Source of the DNA: Paludibacter sp.
GTDB taxonomy: Bacteria > Bacteroidota > Bacteroidia > Bacteroidales > Paludibacteraceae
Assembly (NCBI GenBank): GCA_028710415.1
Contig: JAQTUE010000011.1
Location: 62,001 to 126,000, forward strand
Reading direction: 5' to 3'
DNA length: 64,000 nucleotides
In this document: in pieces, positions 4,896 to 15,690 of the stretch
How positions within the stretch are numbered: the first letter of the stretch is position 1
Layout: the number at the start of each line of letters is the position of its first letter
Notes under the pieces: generated by a model
Seen by the model: the letters and a program-made list of their open reading frames with translations, nothing else
Told to the model about the DNA's origin: nothing
Database searches by the model: none
Translations under genes and position numbers: made by a program

Positions 4896-5085
4896 GAAAA
4901 AAAACCGCATTGCCGTTAGTTGAGAAAACTCCTATAATTAGGATTTGAGGTGTTGGTTTCTTTTGTAATCTGCCGTCCATAAAGGATACCCTGAGGCGCA
5001 GCCCGCCATTAGAAACCAGACATGTCTCGTTTAATTTTTTTAAACGTTGAGTTTTCCAATCTCAGGACAATGCGGTTAGTTTTTG
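4896..5085 (-). ncRNA. Candidate 6S-like RNA (rod-shaped ~190 nt)
   Basis: Minus-strand TATATTTG at 5092-5099; terminal stem AACCGCATTG/CAATGCGGTT followed by T8; inner GAAAACTC/GAGTTTTC and GGTTTCT/AGAAACC; bubble arms each carry a hairpin. Confidence 0.5.
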
Positions 5086-6680: not shown

Positions 6681-6763
6681 GGGCAGTTACCAAAGTGGCC
6701 AACTGGGGCTGACTGTAACTCAGCTGTCTTTCGACTTCGGAGGTTCGAATCCTTCACTGCCCA
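6681..6763 (+). tRNA. tRNA-Tyr (GTA)
   Basis: Acceptor GGGCAGT/ACTGCCC, anticodon loop CTGTAAC, long variable arm, T-arm GGTTCGAATCC. Confidence 0.93.
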
Positions 6764-6856: not shown

Positions 6857-6932
6857 GCGAAAGTAGCTCAGTTGATAGAGCATTAGCCTTCCAAGCTGAG
6901 GGTCGCGGGTTTGAGTCCCGTCTTTCGCTCCA
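6857..6932 (+). tRNA. tRNA-Gly (TCC), CCA encoded
   Basis: Acceptor GCGAAAG/CTTTCGC, anticodon loop CTTCCAA, T-arm CGGGTTTGAGTCCCG, followed by T-CCA. Confidence 0.95.
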
Positions 6933-7968: not shown

Positions 7969-9231
7969 TTAAAAGAACGAAGCTACAAACAATGTCATGG
8001 TTAGCCCAATCAATACCGAAATGGTAAACCATCCGAATATGTTCTGGTACCGGTTATTCACATGCACCCCCATTACTTCCTTGTTGTTTACAATCAATAT
8101 CATGCAAATCAATACTACCGGCAGCAGCAACCCGTTGGCAACCTGAGACCACAAGGTGATCAGGATAAGCGGAGCATTCGGTATTAATATAATGGCAGCG
8201 CCAATGATGATGATAAATGTAAACAACCAATAGAACTGGGGTGCTTCCTTCCATTTCTTATCAATCCCTGCCTCAAATCCGAAAGCCTCGCACACATAGA
8301 ATGCGGTGGCAACCGGTAGGATGGTTGCTGAGAAGATGGACGCTATAAACAGCCCGAATGCAAAGGTCGCAGAAGCTAAATCCCCTGCCAGAGGTTTCAG
8401 TGCAAAGGCAGCATCCTTGGCTTCCTCAATTTTAATCCCGCTCATGTGCAGGGTAGAGGCACAGGCAACAATGATAAAGAATGCCACTACCACCGTAATG
8501 ATACTCCCGAAGATCACATCTGCCAAGGTGTATTTATAATCCGATATGGTCAGCCCTTTCTCAATCACCGCCGACTGCATGTAGAACTGCATCCACGGGG
8601 CAATGGTGGTACCTATGATCCCGATCACGATAGTCAGGTAATCCTTGGTATACTTGATGTCCGGTTTAATCATTGCCTGACCGATATCATGCCAGTGTGG
8701 TTTGCCCAACAATGCTGAAAAGACATACACTAACAGGAAGGCACTGAATATCAGGAAAACCCTTTCGCTGAATTTATACGTTCCCTTTACCACCAGCCAC
8801 CATACCAGCACCGCGGAGATGGGTACTGAAATATATTTGCTGATATCAAAAACCTGCATACTGCCTGCAACCCCCGCAAATTCAGTGGTCGTGTTGCCTA
8901 TATCGGCAATCAACAGGCCCACAAATATAAAGAAGGTTATTTTTACACCTGCATATTCCCTGATCAGGTCCGCCAGCCCTTTGCCGGTTACAATCCCCAT
9001 GCGGGCATTCATTTCCTGCACCACTACCAGTACCAGAAAGGCCGGGAACATAGTCCAGAGCAGGTTATAACCGTACAGGGCGCCGGCTACCGAATAGGTA
9101 GTGATGCCCCCGGCATCATTGTCAACGCTTCCGGTGATGATTCCCGGACCCAGAATGGCAAGGAATACAATGATATTCCGCCAGATATTCTTACGTCTTT
9201 TGTTGAATTCGCTGTATTTAATTAACGCCAT
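7969..9231 (-). CDS. Nramp-family transporter, NRMT-like (probable Mg2+/Mn2+)
   Basis: GPGIITGSVDNDAGGITTYS in TM1 in place of DPGN; IGTTIAPWMQFYMQSA in TM6 in place of MPH; ~11 TM segments. Confidence 0.85.
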   Translation of the reverse strand: MALIKYSEFNKRRKNIWRNIIVFLAILGPGIITGSVDNDAGGITTYSVAGALYGYNLLWTMFPAFLVLVVVQEMNARMGIVTGKGLADLIREYAGVKITFFIFVGLLIADIGNTTTEFAGVAGSMQVFDISKYISVPISAVLVWWLVVKGTYKFSERVFLIFSAFLLVYVFSALLGKPHWHDIGQAMIKPDIKYTKDYLTIVIGIIGTTIAPWMQFYMQSAVIEKGLTISDYKYTLADVIFGSIITVVVAFFIIVACASTLHMSGIKIEEAKDAAFALKPLAGDLASATFAFGLFIASIFSATILPVATAFYVCEAFGFEAGIDKKWKEAPQFYWLFTFIIIIGAAIILIPNAPLILITLWSQVANGLLLPVVLICMILIVNNKEVMGVHVNNRYQNIFGWFTISVLIGLTMTLFVASFF

Positions 9232-10517
9232 GAACGACTGCTTTTCCTTGTTTTACCTTTATCCATTAAATCTTCAATAATATCATCGATGACAACCATA
9301 CCCACCAGGGTGTTTTGTGCATCGGTCACCGGAATTGCCAGCAAGTCGTATTTCAAAATAATCGAAGCCAACTTGTCAATCTTATCCTCATCCTGTACGC
9401 TGATAACCTGTTTGTCCATGATATCGGCCAGGCTCAACTCTGGTGATGAGATCACCAGGTCTCTCAATGAAACGGTGGCTACCAGTTTCTCGTCGTTATC
9501 CGTAATGAACAACGAATAAATCATATCTGCTTCCGGTTTCTGCAGCCTCAATTCCTTCAGGGTATCCTCAATGGACATCGACTCACGGAACGAGAGGTAA
9601 TCGGTGGTCATGAGACTACCCACTTCCTTATCATCATATTCCAGCAATTCGCGGACATCCTCTGACGATTCTTTTTCCATTTCGTTCAGCAGCTCTTCCA
9701 CCTTTTCGTCTTCCAGCTCGTCCATCAAGTCGGCTACCTCGTCGGCAGGCATCTTTTCCAGTACGTCGGCAGCCTTGCTTATCGAGAGGCTCTCGATAAT
9801 CTGTGCCTGTGCGTAAGGTTCCATTTCTTCCAGTACGTCGGCAGCACGTTCTTCATCGAGTGATTCAAACACCTTGGTACGTGAGAGTGAACCCATTTCT
9901 TCAATGATGTCCGCCAGGTCCGAAGGGTGTAACAGTTGTAGTTTACTCGATGAATGCGAGAGTTTGATGTTGAAGTTGGTGGTGTCGAAGGCTTCCACGT
10001 CATCCCACAGTATAAACTGGGTAGGCAGGCTTAGCTTGAACAAATACAGCAATTTGTTGATGATATAGGCTACACCCAAACGTCGCAACAGGCCTTCGGT
10101 GCTGATATCCACAGCCAGGGCATAGATCTCGGGATCAATGGAGACCAACCGGATGTCGTTCACCCGCACCAGTTTACGGCCGTTGATATCCACAATCTGA
10201 CGGTCGAGGATGTTCTTTACCAGTGGCAAACAGTTTTCAATGGTGGAATCGGGTAATTGTTCAATCTTAGAACATCTGAACGAAAAAGTCCGGTTATTCT
10301 TTTCAATTTTGATGTGCTCAAAGTTCAGGTACCGGACTTCCCCGTTGATCCTGGTTTTCAGTCCAATAATAACCGGTCGGAACGCTTCTTCCTTGTGCTT
10401 TCCGTGTTGTGCGGTATTGACTATGATGTCAATAACTTTGCCTAGACGGTTTCCGTTCAGGTCATAGATCTTACAGCCGGTTACCTGGCTTAAGTAAAAT
10501 GTGATTTGTGATGTCAT
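9222..10517 (-). CDS. MgtE intracellular N-domain + CBS + PRC-barrel-like protein (no channel domain)
   Basis: Repeated LxxLxPxDxADIxEEM / EERAADVLEEM / EVADLMDELEDEKVEELLNEM, then YDDKEVGSLMTTDYLSF and CBS repeats; overlaps the transporter start. Confidence 0.88.
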   Translation of the reverse strand: MTSQITFYLSQVTGCKIYDLNGNRLGKVIDIIVNTAQHGKHKEEAFRPVIIGLKTRINGEVRYLNFEHIKIEKNNRTFSFRCSKIEQLPDSTIENCLPLVKNILDRQIVDINGRKLVRVNDIRLVSIDPEIYALAVDISTEGLLRRLGVAYIINKLLYLFKLSLPTQFILWDDVEAFDTTNFNIKLSHSSSKLQLLHPSDLADIIEEMGSLSRTKVFESLDEERAADVLEEMEPYAQAQIIESLSISKAADVLEKMPADEVADLMDELEDEKVEELLNEMEKESSEDVRELLEYDDKEVGSLMTTDYLSFRESMSIEDTLKELRLQKPEADMIYSLFITDNDEKLVATVSLRDLVISSPELSLADIMDKQVISVQDEDKIDKLASIILKYDLLAIPVTDAQNTLVGMVVIDDIIEDLMDKGKTRKSSRSWR

Positions 10518-10655
10518 TTGCCACCTCCTTTTTTTGTAGACTTAGAAGGACGGCTGAAGGAACGATGCGATCAGGCGAACTTTTAAATCAGGATGATTTT
10601 TACTAATTTTCGTATCGCAGGGTCGTCGTCCATTGTGGATTGATGTTTTTTTGAT
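10518..10655 (-). promoter_or_regulatory. Structured 5' leader RNA, candidate metal-responsive riboswitch
   Basis: Minus-strand -7 box TACCTTTG at 10662-10669; nested helices GGACG/CGTCC, ACGA/TCGT, TGCGAT/ATCGCA, AAATCA/TGATTT; SD AAGGAGG just before ATG. Confidence 0.55.
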
Positions 10656-10814
10656 TTCGTGCAAAGGTAATCTAATTTTTTTACGAAAAGATACACCCTT
10701 TTTATTTTAACGTTTATTTTATTTGTCTTGTCTTTTTCTGTGGCAGATATGTCAATCCCGCTTCATTTAGTAAATGGAAATAAATAATGTTGAGTCATTC
10801 AATTTGTACAGCCT

Positions 10815-13216: not shown

Positions 13217-14773
13217 ATGGGATTTTCACTGGAAATAAGACAAAAAGTTATGCTTGCATCAGCAAGACACTGTTGTGTGTGTCATAGATATAAGGGTGTG
13301 AAAATTGAAGTTCATCACATTAAACAAGAAGCTGACGGTGGACCTAATACATTTGAAAATGCAATAGCATTGTGTTTTGACTGTCATTCAGATGCAGGTC
13401 ACTTTAACGACAGACATCCCAGAGGAACTAAATTTTCAAAGAAAGAATTGATTGTAGCTAGAGATATTTGGTATGAAACAATTAAAAGCAAACCTTCAAT
13501 TGAAAAACTGATAGTTTCAAACAAAATACATGCAAGTTATTTTGTTCTACATTCTTTTGAAATATTGGAATCAGTTATTAAAAATGATTTTTCATCCGTA
13601 AATAAATATAGAAATATAGTATATTTATCAAGTAATGCCATTTCAAATCAATGGATTAATCTGTTAAAAACTCACGAATTAGATTACGAATATAATATTG
13701 ACCAAAACGTTATTATAGAATTAGGACAATTTTCTACATTAAATGATTATTGCCAAAAATATGATAATGTCCAAATCATTGATAGAGCTGGAGTAGATTA
13801 TCCATACTACATTGCTAAAAGAGAAATTAAATGGACGGAAATTGATTCAATTTTGCCAAACAGTTTTCTGCGAGAAATAAGTAAATCAGGGATTGAACCA
13901 AAATACTTTTGTACTTCGGTACTTAAAGAAAATGGGGTTACTTGTGGAGATGCGGTACCAACTCTGGCTTTTACTGAATACTTGGAGATTGCACCTATTA
14001 GTTTTATTTTCCTAGGAATTACTAATGCATCGAAAGAACCATTAAAACTTAATAGTTTGACAACTTCTGATGCTGGAGGTATATTCAATTTACCTAAATT
14101 CAATTTACTTCCTTACGAAATGGTTTTAATGCCAATTTCAACAGCAATAAATTTAAGTAGCATAGACAATAACGGAATTGTAATTAATCATATAGATGGT
14201 GACAGAGGGCAAGATTTTTCCAGGATACTAAATTCATATAACTTTAATGACAAGTATGTGAAATTCTTTGAAAAGAAAATCAACCCTCGGACTATCATTT
14301 TTAACGACAATGAAGGTGAATATGAAATTGAGATTCACGAATTCGACTTTAATAATATCTATTCAATAAATAGTTATTGGGAATGTGGTTCTTGTCCTCA
14401 TTTATTTTTAGTAGACAATTCTGGTCAACAAAGATATAGTAGAGAACTTTTAGTTTCATCTTCATTTAAAAAAGGTTCGGATTCATTCGTTGTTCCAAAG
14501 GATATTTACCAAATAGTAATTAGAGAATTAGAAGATGAAATTACATACATTGATAAGATAATTGTAAATGAACTGATAGTTGTTGAATCTAACTCATTAG
14601 GAAAAGGTGAAAAAATAGTTGTCAATGTAAAACCGTTTGACAAAGTGAAAATTAAAGGGCATTATGAGCCGTTCTTTAAAACGAATCCTAAACTTAATGA
14701 CTTATGGTACAGAAATGAAATGATTAAATTGTCAAACAACGTTGTTAATAATAAAATAGATGGCCACTGCTAA
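13217..14773 (+). CDS. HNH endonuclease-domain protein with large uncharacterised C-terminal region
   Basis: CCVCHRYKGVKIEVHHIKQEADGGPNTFENAIALCFDCHSDAGH: CxxC...HHI...N...CxxCH zinc-HNH motif. Confidence 0.85.
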   Translation: MGFSLEIRQKVMLASARHCCVCHRYKGVKIEVHHIKQEADGGPNTFENAIALCFDCHSDAGHFNDRHPRGTKFSKKELIVARDIWYETIKSKPSIEKLIVSNKIHASYFVLHSFEILESVIKNDFSSVNKYRNIVYLSSNAISNQWINLLKTHELDYEYNIDQNVIIELGQFSTLNDYCQKYDNVQIIDRAGVDYPYYIAKREIKWTEIDSILPNSFLREISKSGIEPKYFCTSVLKENGVTCGDAVPTLAFTEYLEIAPISFIFLGITNASKEPLKLNSLTTSDAGGIFNLPKFNLLPYEMVLMPISTAINLSSIDNNGIVINHIDGDRGQDFSRILNSYNFNDKYVKFFEKKINPRTIIFNDNEGEYEIEIHEFDFNNIYSINSYWECGSCPHLFLVDNSGQQRYSRELLVSSSFKKGSDSFVVPKDIYQIVIRELEDEITYIDKIIVNELIVVESNSLGKGEKIVVNVKPFDKVKIKGHYEPFFKTNPKLNDLWYRNEMIKLSNNVVNNKIDGHC

Positions 14774-14835
14774 CCATATTAGATGTCAGAAACTAACTTT
14801 GAACGAAAGAAATTTAAATTTTAAATAAAAGCATC

Positions 14836-15690
14836 ATGAATTGGAAAGATTACGAAAAAGAAATTCACAACTATTTCAAAGAAATGTTTCCTAATGCTGA
14901 TATTTCTCATAACGTAACTGTTTTGGGACGATATTCAAAAGTTGAAAGACAAATTGATATTTTAATTGAAGATTATATTGCTGGTTGTCGAATGAGAATT
15001 GTTATTGATGGTAAACTTTTCTCTGAAAAAATTGATGTAAAAGATGTTGAAATGTTTATTGGAATGCTTAATGATTGCGAAGCAAACAAAGGACTTTTAA
15101 TAACCCAAGAAGGGTTTTCAAAAGCAGCAATAAATCGAGCATATCATGACCCAATTGACATAGAATTAGATATTCTAAATTTCAAAGACTTATATCAATT
15201 TCAAGGTTCTGGGGGAATACCGTATAGTGGAAAGCATGGAGTATTATTACCTGCACCATTTGGATGGATAATAGACGCAACCAGAAGGAATGGTATGTTA
15301 GCTACACTCTACCAGCGTGGATTGACACTTGAAAAAGCGGGAGCAAATAAAGAATGGATGTATGTAAATCTTAGAAGTAAAGACGATGAAATAAAAACAA
15401 TAGATGATTTTCTAAAATTCCAAGAAAAAAATACACTCAGGGAATTTCCAAAAGCAAAAATATCTTTCTTGCCGACAGTCAAACGAGATGATGCTACAAT
15501 TAAACTTAGAGTAATTGATATTAGTACATACCCGACAAAAGAATATACTGGATTTGTTGACTTTAAGGACTTTATTTTCTTTTGTGTGATGTTTACACCC
15601 GATGAACTGAATAGGAAAAATATTCGAAAGTTGGAAAGTATTTTACAAAGGGCATTGCCTATTAATATAAATCAACCGGCTGGTTTATGA
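14836..15690 (+). CDS. Mrr-like PD-(D/E)xK restriction endonuclease family protein
   Basis: RQIDILIEDYIAGCRMRIVIDGKLFSEKIDVKDVEMF...GLLITQEGFSKAA pattern. Confidence 0.75.
   Translation: MNWKDYEKEIHNYFKEMFPNADISHNVTVLGRYSKVERQIDILIEDYIAGCRMRIVIDGKLFSEKIDVKDVEMFIGMLNDCEANKGLLITQEGFSKAAINRAYHDPIDIELDILNFKDLYQFQGSGGIPYSGKHGVLLPAPFGWIIDATRRNGMLATLYQRGLTLEKAGANKEWMYVNLRSKDDEIKTIDDFLKFQEKNTLREFPKAKISFLPTVKRDDATIKLRVIDISTYPTKEYTGFVDFKDFIFFCVMFTPDELNRKNIRKLESILQRALPININQPAGL

Follow-up and report, generated by a model that had tools for sequence, protein, structure and literature searches.

A candidate Mg2+-responsive leader-peptide attenuator upstream of NRMT/MgtE-sensor and CorA genes in Bacteroidales

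In a handful of enteric genes, Mg2+ is sensed by an acidic leader peptide through the stability of the ribosome translating it. In Salmonella mgtQ, the residues Asp2 and Glu5 reduce translation of the upstream open reading frame (uORF) and promote translation of mgtB via a stem that excludes the stem occluding the ribosome-binding site (RBS) (PMC8092293). The start of the MgtL peptide is also acidic and contains proline (EPDP), and this sequence destabilises ribosomes at low Mg2+ (PMC11282234, PMC11552253). Here we describe a 5' leader from Paludibacter sp. that, by analogy with Salmonella mgtQ and mgtL, is probably (at a probability of about 0.75) a Mg2+-responsive translational attenuator with an acidic leader peptide. 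The leader lies in a window of 64,000 nucleotides, which is the whole stretch of DNA that was analysed (assembly GCA_028710415.1, contig JAQTUE010000011.1, positions 62,001 to 126,000), and it precedes an operon of two genes on the minus strand.

The features of the leader and operon are listed below in window coordinates, where SD denotes the Shine-Dalgarno sequence and the basis of each assignment is given in brackets.

10662..10669, minus strand: promoter -7 box TACCTTTG, of the Bacteroidota TAnnTTTG type (read from the sequence)
10583..10633, minus strand: uORF of 16 codons, MDDDPAIRKLVKIILI* (M-D-x-x-P uORF in orthologous leaders)
10619..10630, minus strand: uORF codons 2-5 (D-D-D-P), the proposed sensing or ribosome-destabilising element (Asp2 and Pro5 in orthologous uORFs)
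10580..10589, minus strand: 5' strand of helix A, GAUUUAAAAG, across the uORF stop codon at 10585-10583 (cognate-pairing test)
10539..10548, minus strand: 3' strand of helix A, CUUCUAAGUC, which includes the anti-SD (cognate-pairing test, both families)
10544..10554, minus strand: 5' strand of helix B, the anti-SD, GCCG-u-CCUUCU (MFE structure and cognate-pairing test)
10520..10529, minus strand: 3' strand of helix B, AGGAGGUGGC, the SD of the MgtE-sensor gene (MFE structure and cognate-pairing test)
9222..10517, minus strand: PRC / MgtE_N / CBS protein, 431 aa, first gene of the operon (Pfam)
7969..9231, minus strand: NRMT-type Nramp transporter, 420 aa, second gene of the operon (Pfam Nramp)

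The protein encoded by the first gene matches the MgtE cytosolic-domain structures 2yvy and 2oux (PDB), and from its sequence it would be a soluble Mg2+-sensor domain of the MgtE type. The Nramp gene overlaps it by 10 nt, and the best PDB match of the Nramp protein is 7qia (E 9e-111), as compared to ~5e-26 for canonical MntH. The ion site of NRAMP-related Mg2+ transporters (NRMTs) is formed by a Gly on helix 1 and by a Thr and an Ala on helix 6 (PMC8806188); all three signature residues are present in the window's protein, whose NDAGG and GTTIAPW segments align identically with 7qia, and it is NRMT-like and closest to EleNRMT. The order of the downstream genes, MgtE_N with CBS (and PRC) followed by Nramp, had been correctly given by the initial annotation, which placed a cis-regulatory leader of ~138 nt before a Mg2+-type transport operon, a claim that our analysis supports, the leader being conserved. 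The segments it quoted are all present on the minus strand (TACCTTTG at 10669-10662, GGACGACGACCCTGCGAT at 10631-10614, AAATCA-TCC-TGATTT at 10599-10585, ATCGCATCGT at 10571-10562 and CGTCC at 10552-10548), as is the SD AAGGAGG (10530-10524, start codon at 10517). It overlooked the 16-codon uORF, which starts ~30 nt past the TACCTTTG box, reads ATG GAC GAC GAC CCT GCG ... TAA, and supplies, with its first codons, the 5' arm of a rod that the initial annotation had drawn. Elsewhere in the window are a Bacteroidales-1 RNA (RF01693, a suggested 6S RNA; 112.7 bits, 4897-5077, minus strand), a lumazine synthase gene (PF00885, 6111-6635) with two Rfam tRNA genes just past it (6681-6763 and 6857-6929, plus strand), and, at 13217-15690 on the plus strand, neighbouring genes with HNH endonuclease (PF01844) and Mrr-type restriction-endonuclease (PF04471) domains that are possibly a defence pair.

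Homologs of the 431-aa protein were gathered through protein searches alone, with the uORF motif unused, yielding 37 full-length or nearly full-length sequences of 45-100% identity. A uORF starting M-D-x-x-P precedes 34 of these 37 MgtE-sensor/NRMT orthologs; before the other three (L008, L009 and L075), nothing recognisable as such a uORF is present. Its starts include MDDDPA, MDDGPA, MDEGPA, MDEGPD, MDGDPA, MDPEPA and MDPYPS, among others; Asp2 and Pro5 each occur in 34/34 uORF-bearing leaders, the invariance of Pro5 being partly a matter of definition, since M-D-x-x-P was the selection criterion. Lys and Arg are absent from residues 2-5 of every uORF, and at least two acidic residues occupy these positions in 77 of 79 uORFs. 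Selection was assessed by counting pairwise differences between diverged leaders at codon positions 1/2/3. Codons 2-5 have a clear third-position bias, with 80/160/414 differences in the MgtE-sensor leaders and 464/560/899 in leaders of CorA genes (described below), whereas codons 6-9 have none (466/589/558 and 1193/1044/1157, respectively). The bias is confined to codons 2-5, and therefore the first residues are conserved as peptide and the later ones are not. The stop region of the uORF is often closed in several frames (e.g. TTAACCTGATATAG), and related leaders end there in different frames (INLI* or LLT*), as would be expected of a region that matters as RNA and not as peptide. The Ala6 codon (window 10618-10616) is GCG in 24/25 MgtE-sensor leaders despite third-position variation in the codons that flank it, hinting at an extra, nucleotide-level constraint at codon 6.

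The leader is restricted to genes of Mg2+ transport. A blind scan of 85,488 species genomes (264 billion bases) with the pattern TTTGC, gap, ATGGACGANGRNCCTGCG returned 60 matches, of which 8 are internal to long ORFs and 52 are short uORFs of 12-25 codons. All 52 precede either MgtE-sensor/NRMT genes (50) or CorA genes (2), the MgtE-sensor gene usually preceding an NRMT gene, and the named hosts include Bacteroides luti DSM 26991, Paludibacter, Mariniphaga and Prolixibacteraceae. As a background, the 242 genes of 150 aa or longer at the named loci were considered; such a uORF precedes 39, of which 38 are MgtE-sensor or CorA genes, including three CorA genes that had not been sought, among them a Bacteroides luti corA with MDDYHSKD. 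The MDEGP/MDDGP pattern has no match in 398 further genomes of the phylum, a set drawn mostly from outside the order, and class-level MDDYH matches are real only in two genomes of the same order, ahead of CorA (L202 and L203), the others being chance coding matches. The sampled range of the leader thus lies largely within Bacteroidales. One locus labelled Alphaproteobacteria (L098) has a leader and an MgtE-sensor gene typical of Bacteroidales and is probably a mis-binned contig, and three others (L096, L142 and L148) share one chance match in a long ORF (MDEEPARVIVNSRTGTVVI...).

At the level of the order, the pattern was also matched before three CorA genes (L042, L044 and L048) and one OprB-type porin gene (L046). 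A homolog search without the motif collected 60 CorA genes, and the leaders of 50 were read: an M-[D/E]-[D/E/G] uORF is present in 46, and four are without a uORF. Thirteen are of the MDDYH type (14 with L176, for which the automated choice fell on a wrong short ORF) and 13 are MDDGP/MDEGP, with others such as MDDSNPR and MDEDP. The MDDYH/MDDYY/MDDHH-type uORFs (L158, L171, L172, L174-L181, L184, L185, L187, L189 and L195) are without Pro5 and keep Tyr/His at positions 4-5, a pattern that suggests nascent-chain sensing of a second kind. The uORFs of L190-L194, L197 and L198 are of yet another type, MDD[S/P][N/I][P/S]R. The only CorA of the window's own genome (L199, G000:C81:12457-13329; E 1.1e-64 to PF01544) belongs to a subfamily other than that of the CorA genes with MDD leaders. 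The porin gene (PF04966; L046, in reverse orientation L213; G099:C2) is preceded by a complete MDEGPATRLLTVSMER* leader that includes an SD hairpin, which hints that outer-membrane Mg2+ entry may belong to the regulon. Its homologs L214-L216 have no uORF, so the porin is an isolated target. In genome G008, a porin gene adjoins the NRMT operon.

To describe the pairing within the leader, segments are named here by position as uORF start, uORF stop, middle (anti-SD) and SD. Duplex energies of cognate and non-cognate segments were compared after double-centring, with 5000 permutations, in leaders of less than 75% mutual identity; this test is conservative, since the partners of relatives also fit. 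In 33 MgtE-sensor leaders, the uORF-stop region pairs with the middle (helix A) at -13.6 vs -9.9 kcal/mol (z -7.3, 0/5000), and the middle pairs with the SD (helix B) at -14.5 vs -11.7 kcal/mol (z -6.3, 0/5000). The CorA leaders (30 used) gave z -11.0 for helix A and z -9.4 for helix B, again with 0/5000 each. In the window, helix B joins 10554-10551 plus 10549-10544 to 10529-10520, and helix A joins 10589-10580 to 10548-10539, with one A-C mismatch in the window's own copy. The two helices are mutually exclusive, because the CUUCU (anti-SD) strand is common to both. Within the genus, their pairs survive change: a C-G pair becomes T-A by a double change in helix B, and T-A, T-G and C-G alternate in helix A. 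Helix B also bears out the suggestion of the initial annotation that a CCTT segment could sequester the SD.

The remaining segment combinations served as controls. The start x middle, start x stop, stop x SD and start x SD pairs gave z values of -0.2, -1.1, -0.9 and +1.1 in the MgtE-sensor leaders and of -0.6, -0.2, -1.7 (weak) and -0.7 in the CorA leaders. Several rejected structures fall among them. The 21-bp outer rod with bulges, drawn by the initial annotation between the uORF start and the region near the anti-SD, is the start x middle pair; across the 33 diverged leaders it has no cognate-pairing signal and no covariation, 2037/5000 permutations being as good. The same tests rule out the uORF start as an SD mimic that pairs with the anti-SD (GAAGGA/UCCUUC), and pairing of the uORF start with its stop was likewise rejected. 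The AAATCA/TGATTT hairpin placed inside the rod varies compatibly within the genus, but it gives no signal when the whole set is considered (z -0.3 to -0.9). As an mgtQ-like 1:2 hairpin in the uORF, AAATCA/TGATTT and GAATCA/TGATTC are suggestive within the genus, and across the set a stem-loop 1:2 within the uORF gave no cognate-pairing signal with three window choices in both families. The fold of the window's leader as a whole barely beats shuffled sequences (-28 vs -22.6 kcal/mol, z -1.59, 11/200 shuffles as good).

Measured from the last base of the stop codon, the 5' strand of helix A has a median position of -8 to +10 in the MgtE-sensor leaders and of -1 to +12 in the CorA leaders, and it would therefore be expected to sit under the footprint of a terminating ribosome. 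In structure modelling, the SD is less accessible with the stop region masked than with a ribosome at codon 5 (p 1.7e-6 and 1.2e-5), and the modelled opening is small (mean 0.18 vs 0.07; in the window itself only 0.03 vs 0.00). Because most MgtE-sensor leaders favour helix B at equilibrium and the window's SD barely opens, helix A would have to win co-transcriptionally. A TTTG is found upstream in 121/129 leaders, most commonly 28-31 nt before the uORF ATG. The initiation contexts of the uORF and the main gene differ: the stretch before the window's uORF is A-rich (52% A over the set) and has no SD-like motif, and such a motif occurs in 2/129 uORF leaders vs 118/124 main-gene leaders. Ribosomes of Bacteroidia are reported not to recognise SDs, the anti-SD of their 16S rRNA being held by bS21, bS18 and bS6 (PMC9976891).

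A conserved ORF with an acidic start, together with two exclusive helices at its stop codon and at the SD, gives this leader the anatomy of a leader-peptide attenuator. The features common to acidic leader-peptide (IRD-type) Mg2+ attenuators are present, namely an acidic/Pro start, a peptide-conserved N-terminus, exclusive structures that overlap the uORF and would control the downstream gene, and a downstream Mg2+ transporter. In the mechanism we propose, transcription would start just past the TACCTTTG box, and the mRNA would encode MDDDPAIRKLVKIILI*. The uORF-stop region (strand 2) could pair with the anti-SD (strand 3) as helix A, or helix B could arise between strand 3 and the SD of the MgtE-sensor gene (strand 4). 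With ample Mg2+, ribosomes would complete the uORF and the terminating ribosome would cover strand 2, so that helix B forms, the SD is hidden and the operon is poorly translated (OFF). At low Mg2+, ribosomes would be destabilised on the acidic/Pro N-terminus and drop off early, leaving strand 2 free, whereupon helix A would capture the anti-SD and expose the SD (ON). We infer that the uORF is translated, that the response is Mg2+-dependent drop-off as opposed to arrest, and that the switch runs in this direction. Given the SD-indifferent ribosomes of Bacteroidia, helix B could act by burying the initiation region or via ribosomes that lack bS21. Pure MgtL logic may not cover the MDDYH-type CorA peptides, which are without Pro.

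Among other explanations, one keeps the same A/B switch and has the acidic nascent peptide cause a stable, Mg2+-sensitive arrest at codons 3-6 in place of drop-off, or, as a variant, has the peptide respond to some other signal, e.g. the status of prolyl-tRNA or EF-P; together these two versions are unlikely. Pro5 is invariant in the MgtE-sensor leaders, the specific MDDYH/MDEGPYH motif of the CorA leaders suggests specific nascent-chain recognition, and a ribosome parked at codon 5 would likewise leave strand 2 free. However, ribosome stalling by a lone Pro is not known (PMC8092293), the more general common feature is the pair or more of acidic residues at positions 2-5, and the enteric acidic-start precedents act by destabilisation. 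It is less probable still that the uORF works by Rho-dependent transcription attenuation, with the SD hairpin secondary. The enteric mgtL and corL do act through Rho (PMC11552253), but here helix B contains the SD itself, ends at the start codon and has no U-tract, and both helices are built precisely around the anti-SD and SD, an arrangement also seen in mgtQ, whose action is on translation alone.

Mg2+-dependent drop-off on the acidic N-terminus must also be weighed against readings in which the peptide is not the sensor. Metal riboswitches do exist, the M-box and yybP-ykoY being examples, and the initial annotation had proposed such an element, in which the leader RNA itself would bind Mg2+/Mn2+ in a rod-like aptamer and open or close the SD. 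An SD-sequestering helix and an alternative helix are indeed present, but neither the M-box (RF00380) nor yybP-ykoY (RF00080), nor any other Rfam family, matches the leader at the gathering threshold or at E<=1, in agreement with its remark that the leader does not fit those two. The rod and the uORF start x stop pair are without cognate-pairing signal, the most conserved segment besides the two regulatory helices is a reading frame with third-position variation, and the sequence between the uORF and the anti-SD is variable, with no room for a conserved aptamer. A nested-rod aptamer is unsupported, since the rod is unconserved and the conserved parts are the acidic-start ORF and the two exclusive helices, and Mn2+ is not indicated by the targets (NRMT, CorA and an MgtE-type sensor). 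The leader itself is real but probably no ligand-binding riboswitch, a reading we hold to be very improbable, and the rod is not its conserved structure. Least probable of all is that the strong SD marks mRNAs for specialised ribosomes lacking bS21, compare rpsU of Flavobacterium, with the uORF and hairpin as modifiers. The frequency of SD-like motifs in the main-gene leaders relative to the uORF leaders, in a phylum where SDs are seldom used (PMC9976891), would accord with this, but the SD strand covaries with the anti-SD (z -6.3 and -9.4), including the non-consensus AGAAGG in L005. Because this covariation includes departures from the SD consensus, the SD strand is conserved as a pairing partner.

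Control by an acidic leader peptide and an SD-sequestering switch appears to be a widespread magnesium sensor undescribed in this phylum; among the open-licence full texts searched, no paper describing such leaders in it was found. We consider it rather probable that most Mg2+ importers of the NRMT/MgtE-sensor and CorA types in Bacteroidales are under the control of a large, so far undescribed family of Mg2+ sensors that act as nascent peptides, with at least three N-terminal types (MD[D/E]GP, MDDYH and MDD[S/P]NPR), that this family is linked to an SD-hiding switch although ribosomes of the phylum normally disregard SDs, and that it arose independently of enteric MgtL/mgtQ. If true, the ribosome itself would be a general Mg2+ sensor, such control would have arisen more than once, and the same logic would operate order-wide on unrelated transporters (NRMT/MgtE-sensor and CorA). 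It would also provide a concrete Mg2+ regulon for Bacteroidales, cultured Bacteroides included, and would explain a strong SD-like sequence in an SD-indifferent phylum as the pairing partner of the anti-SD. The diversity of N-termini, with Pro at position 5 or Tyr-His, would amount to a natural mutational series for ribosome-destabilising nascent chains.

The closest described systems share parts of this design. Like the Bacteroidales leaders, mgtQ combines a short uORF with an acidic start (Asp2 and Glu5 in mgtQ) and translational control of a Mg2+ transporter, and its RBS-occluding stem-loop 3:4 is excluded by stem-loop 2:3. However, mgtQ has a stem-loop 1:2 inside its uORF, an equivalent of which was not detected here, whereas in our leaders strand 2 contains the stop codon of the uORF; mgtQ is intergenic and the element described here is a 5' leader; and the targets here belong to another phylum and comprise NRMT/MgtE-sensor, CorA and one porin. 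With MgtL, the leader peptide of mgtA in Salmonella and E. coli, the likeness lies in the N-terminal acidic residues and Pro (EPDP there; DDDP, DEGP and DPEP here), a downstream Mg2+ transporter and alternative RNA structures, and the MDPEP start (L083) has the acidic-Pro-acidic-Pro layout of MgtL. MgtL differs in its transporter family and phylum and uses Rho-dependent termination (PMC11282234, PMC11552253), whereas the switch here is built on the SD, and the SD-centred helices argue for translational control rather than MgtL-like termination. In corL of Salmonella and E. coli, a uORF also precedes corA and its translation gives Mg2+-dependent repression (PMC11552253), but corL is poorer in acidic/Pro residues and works through Rho, whereas nearly every sampled Bacteroidales corA of the present type has an MDD/MDE uORF with helices A and B. 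The M-box (ykoK) and yybP-ykoY are likewise cis-regulatory RNAs before divalent-metal transporter genes, but here there is no conserved aptamer and the conserved element is the peptide. By analogy, then, the leader would work like mgtQ and MgtL, but by sequence it is a member of neither.
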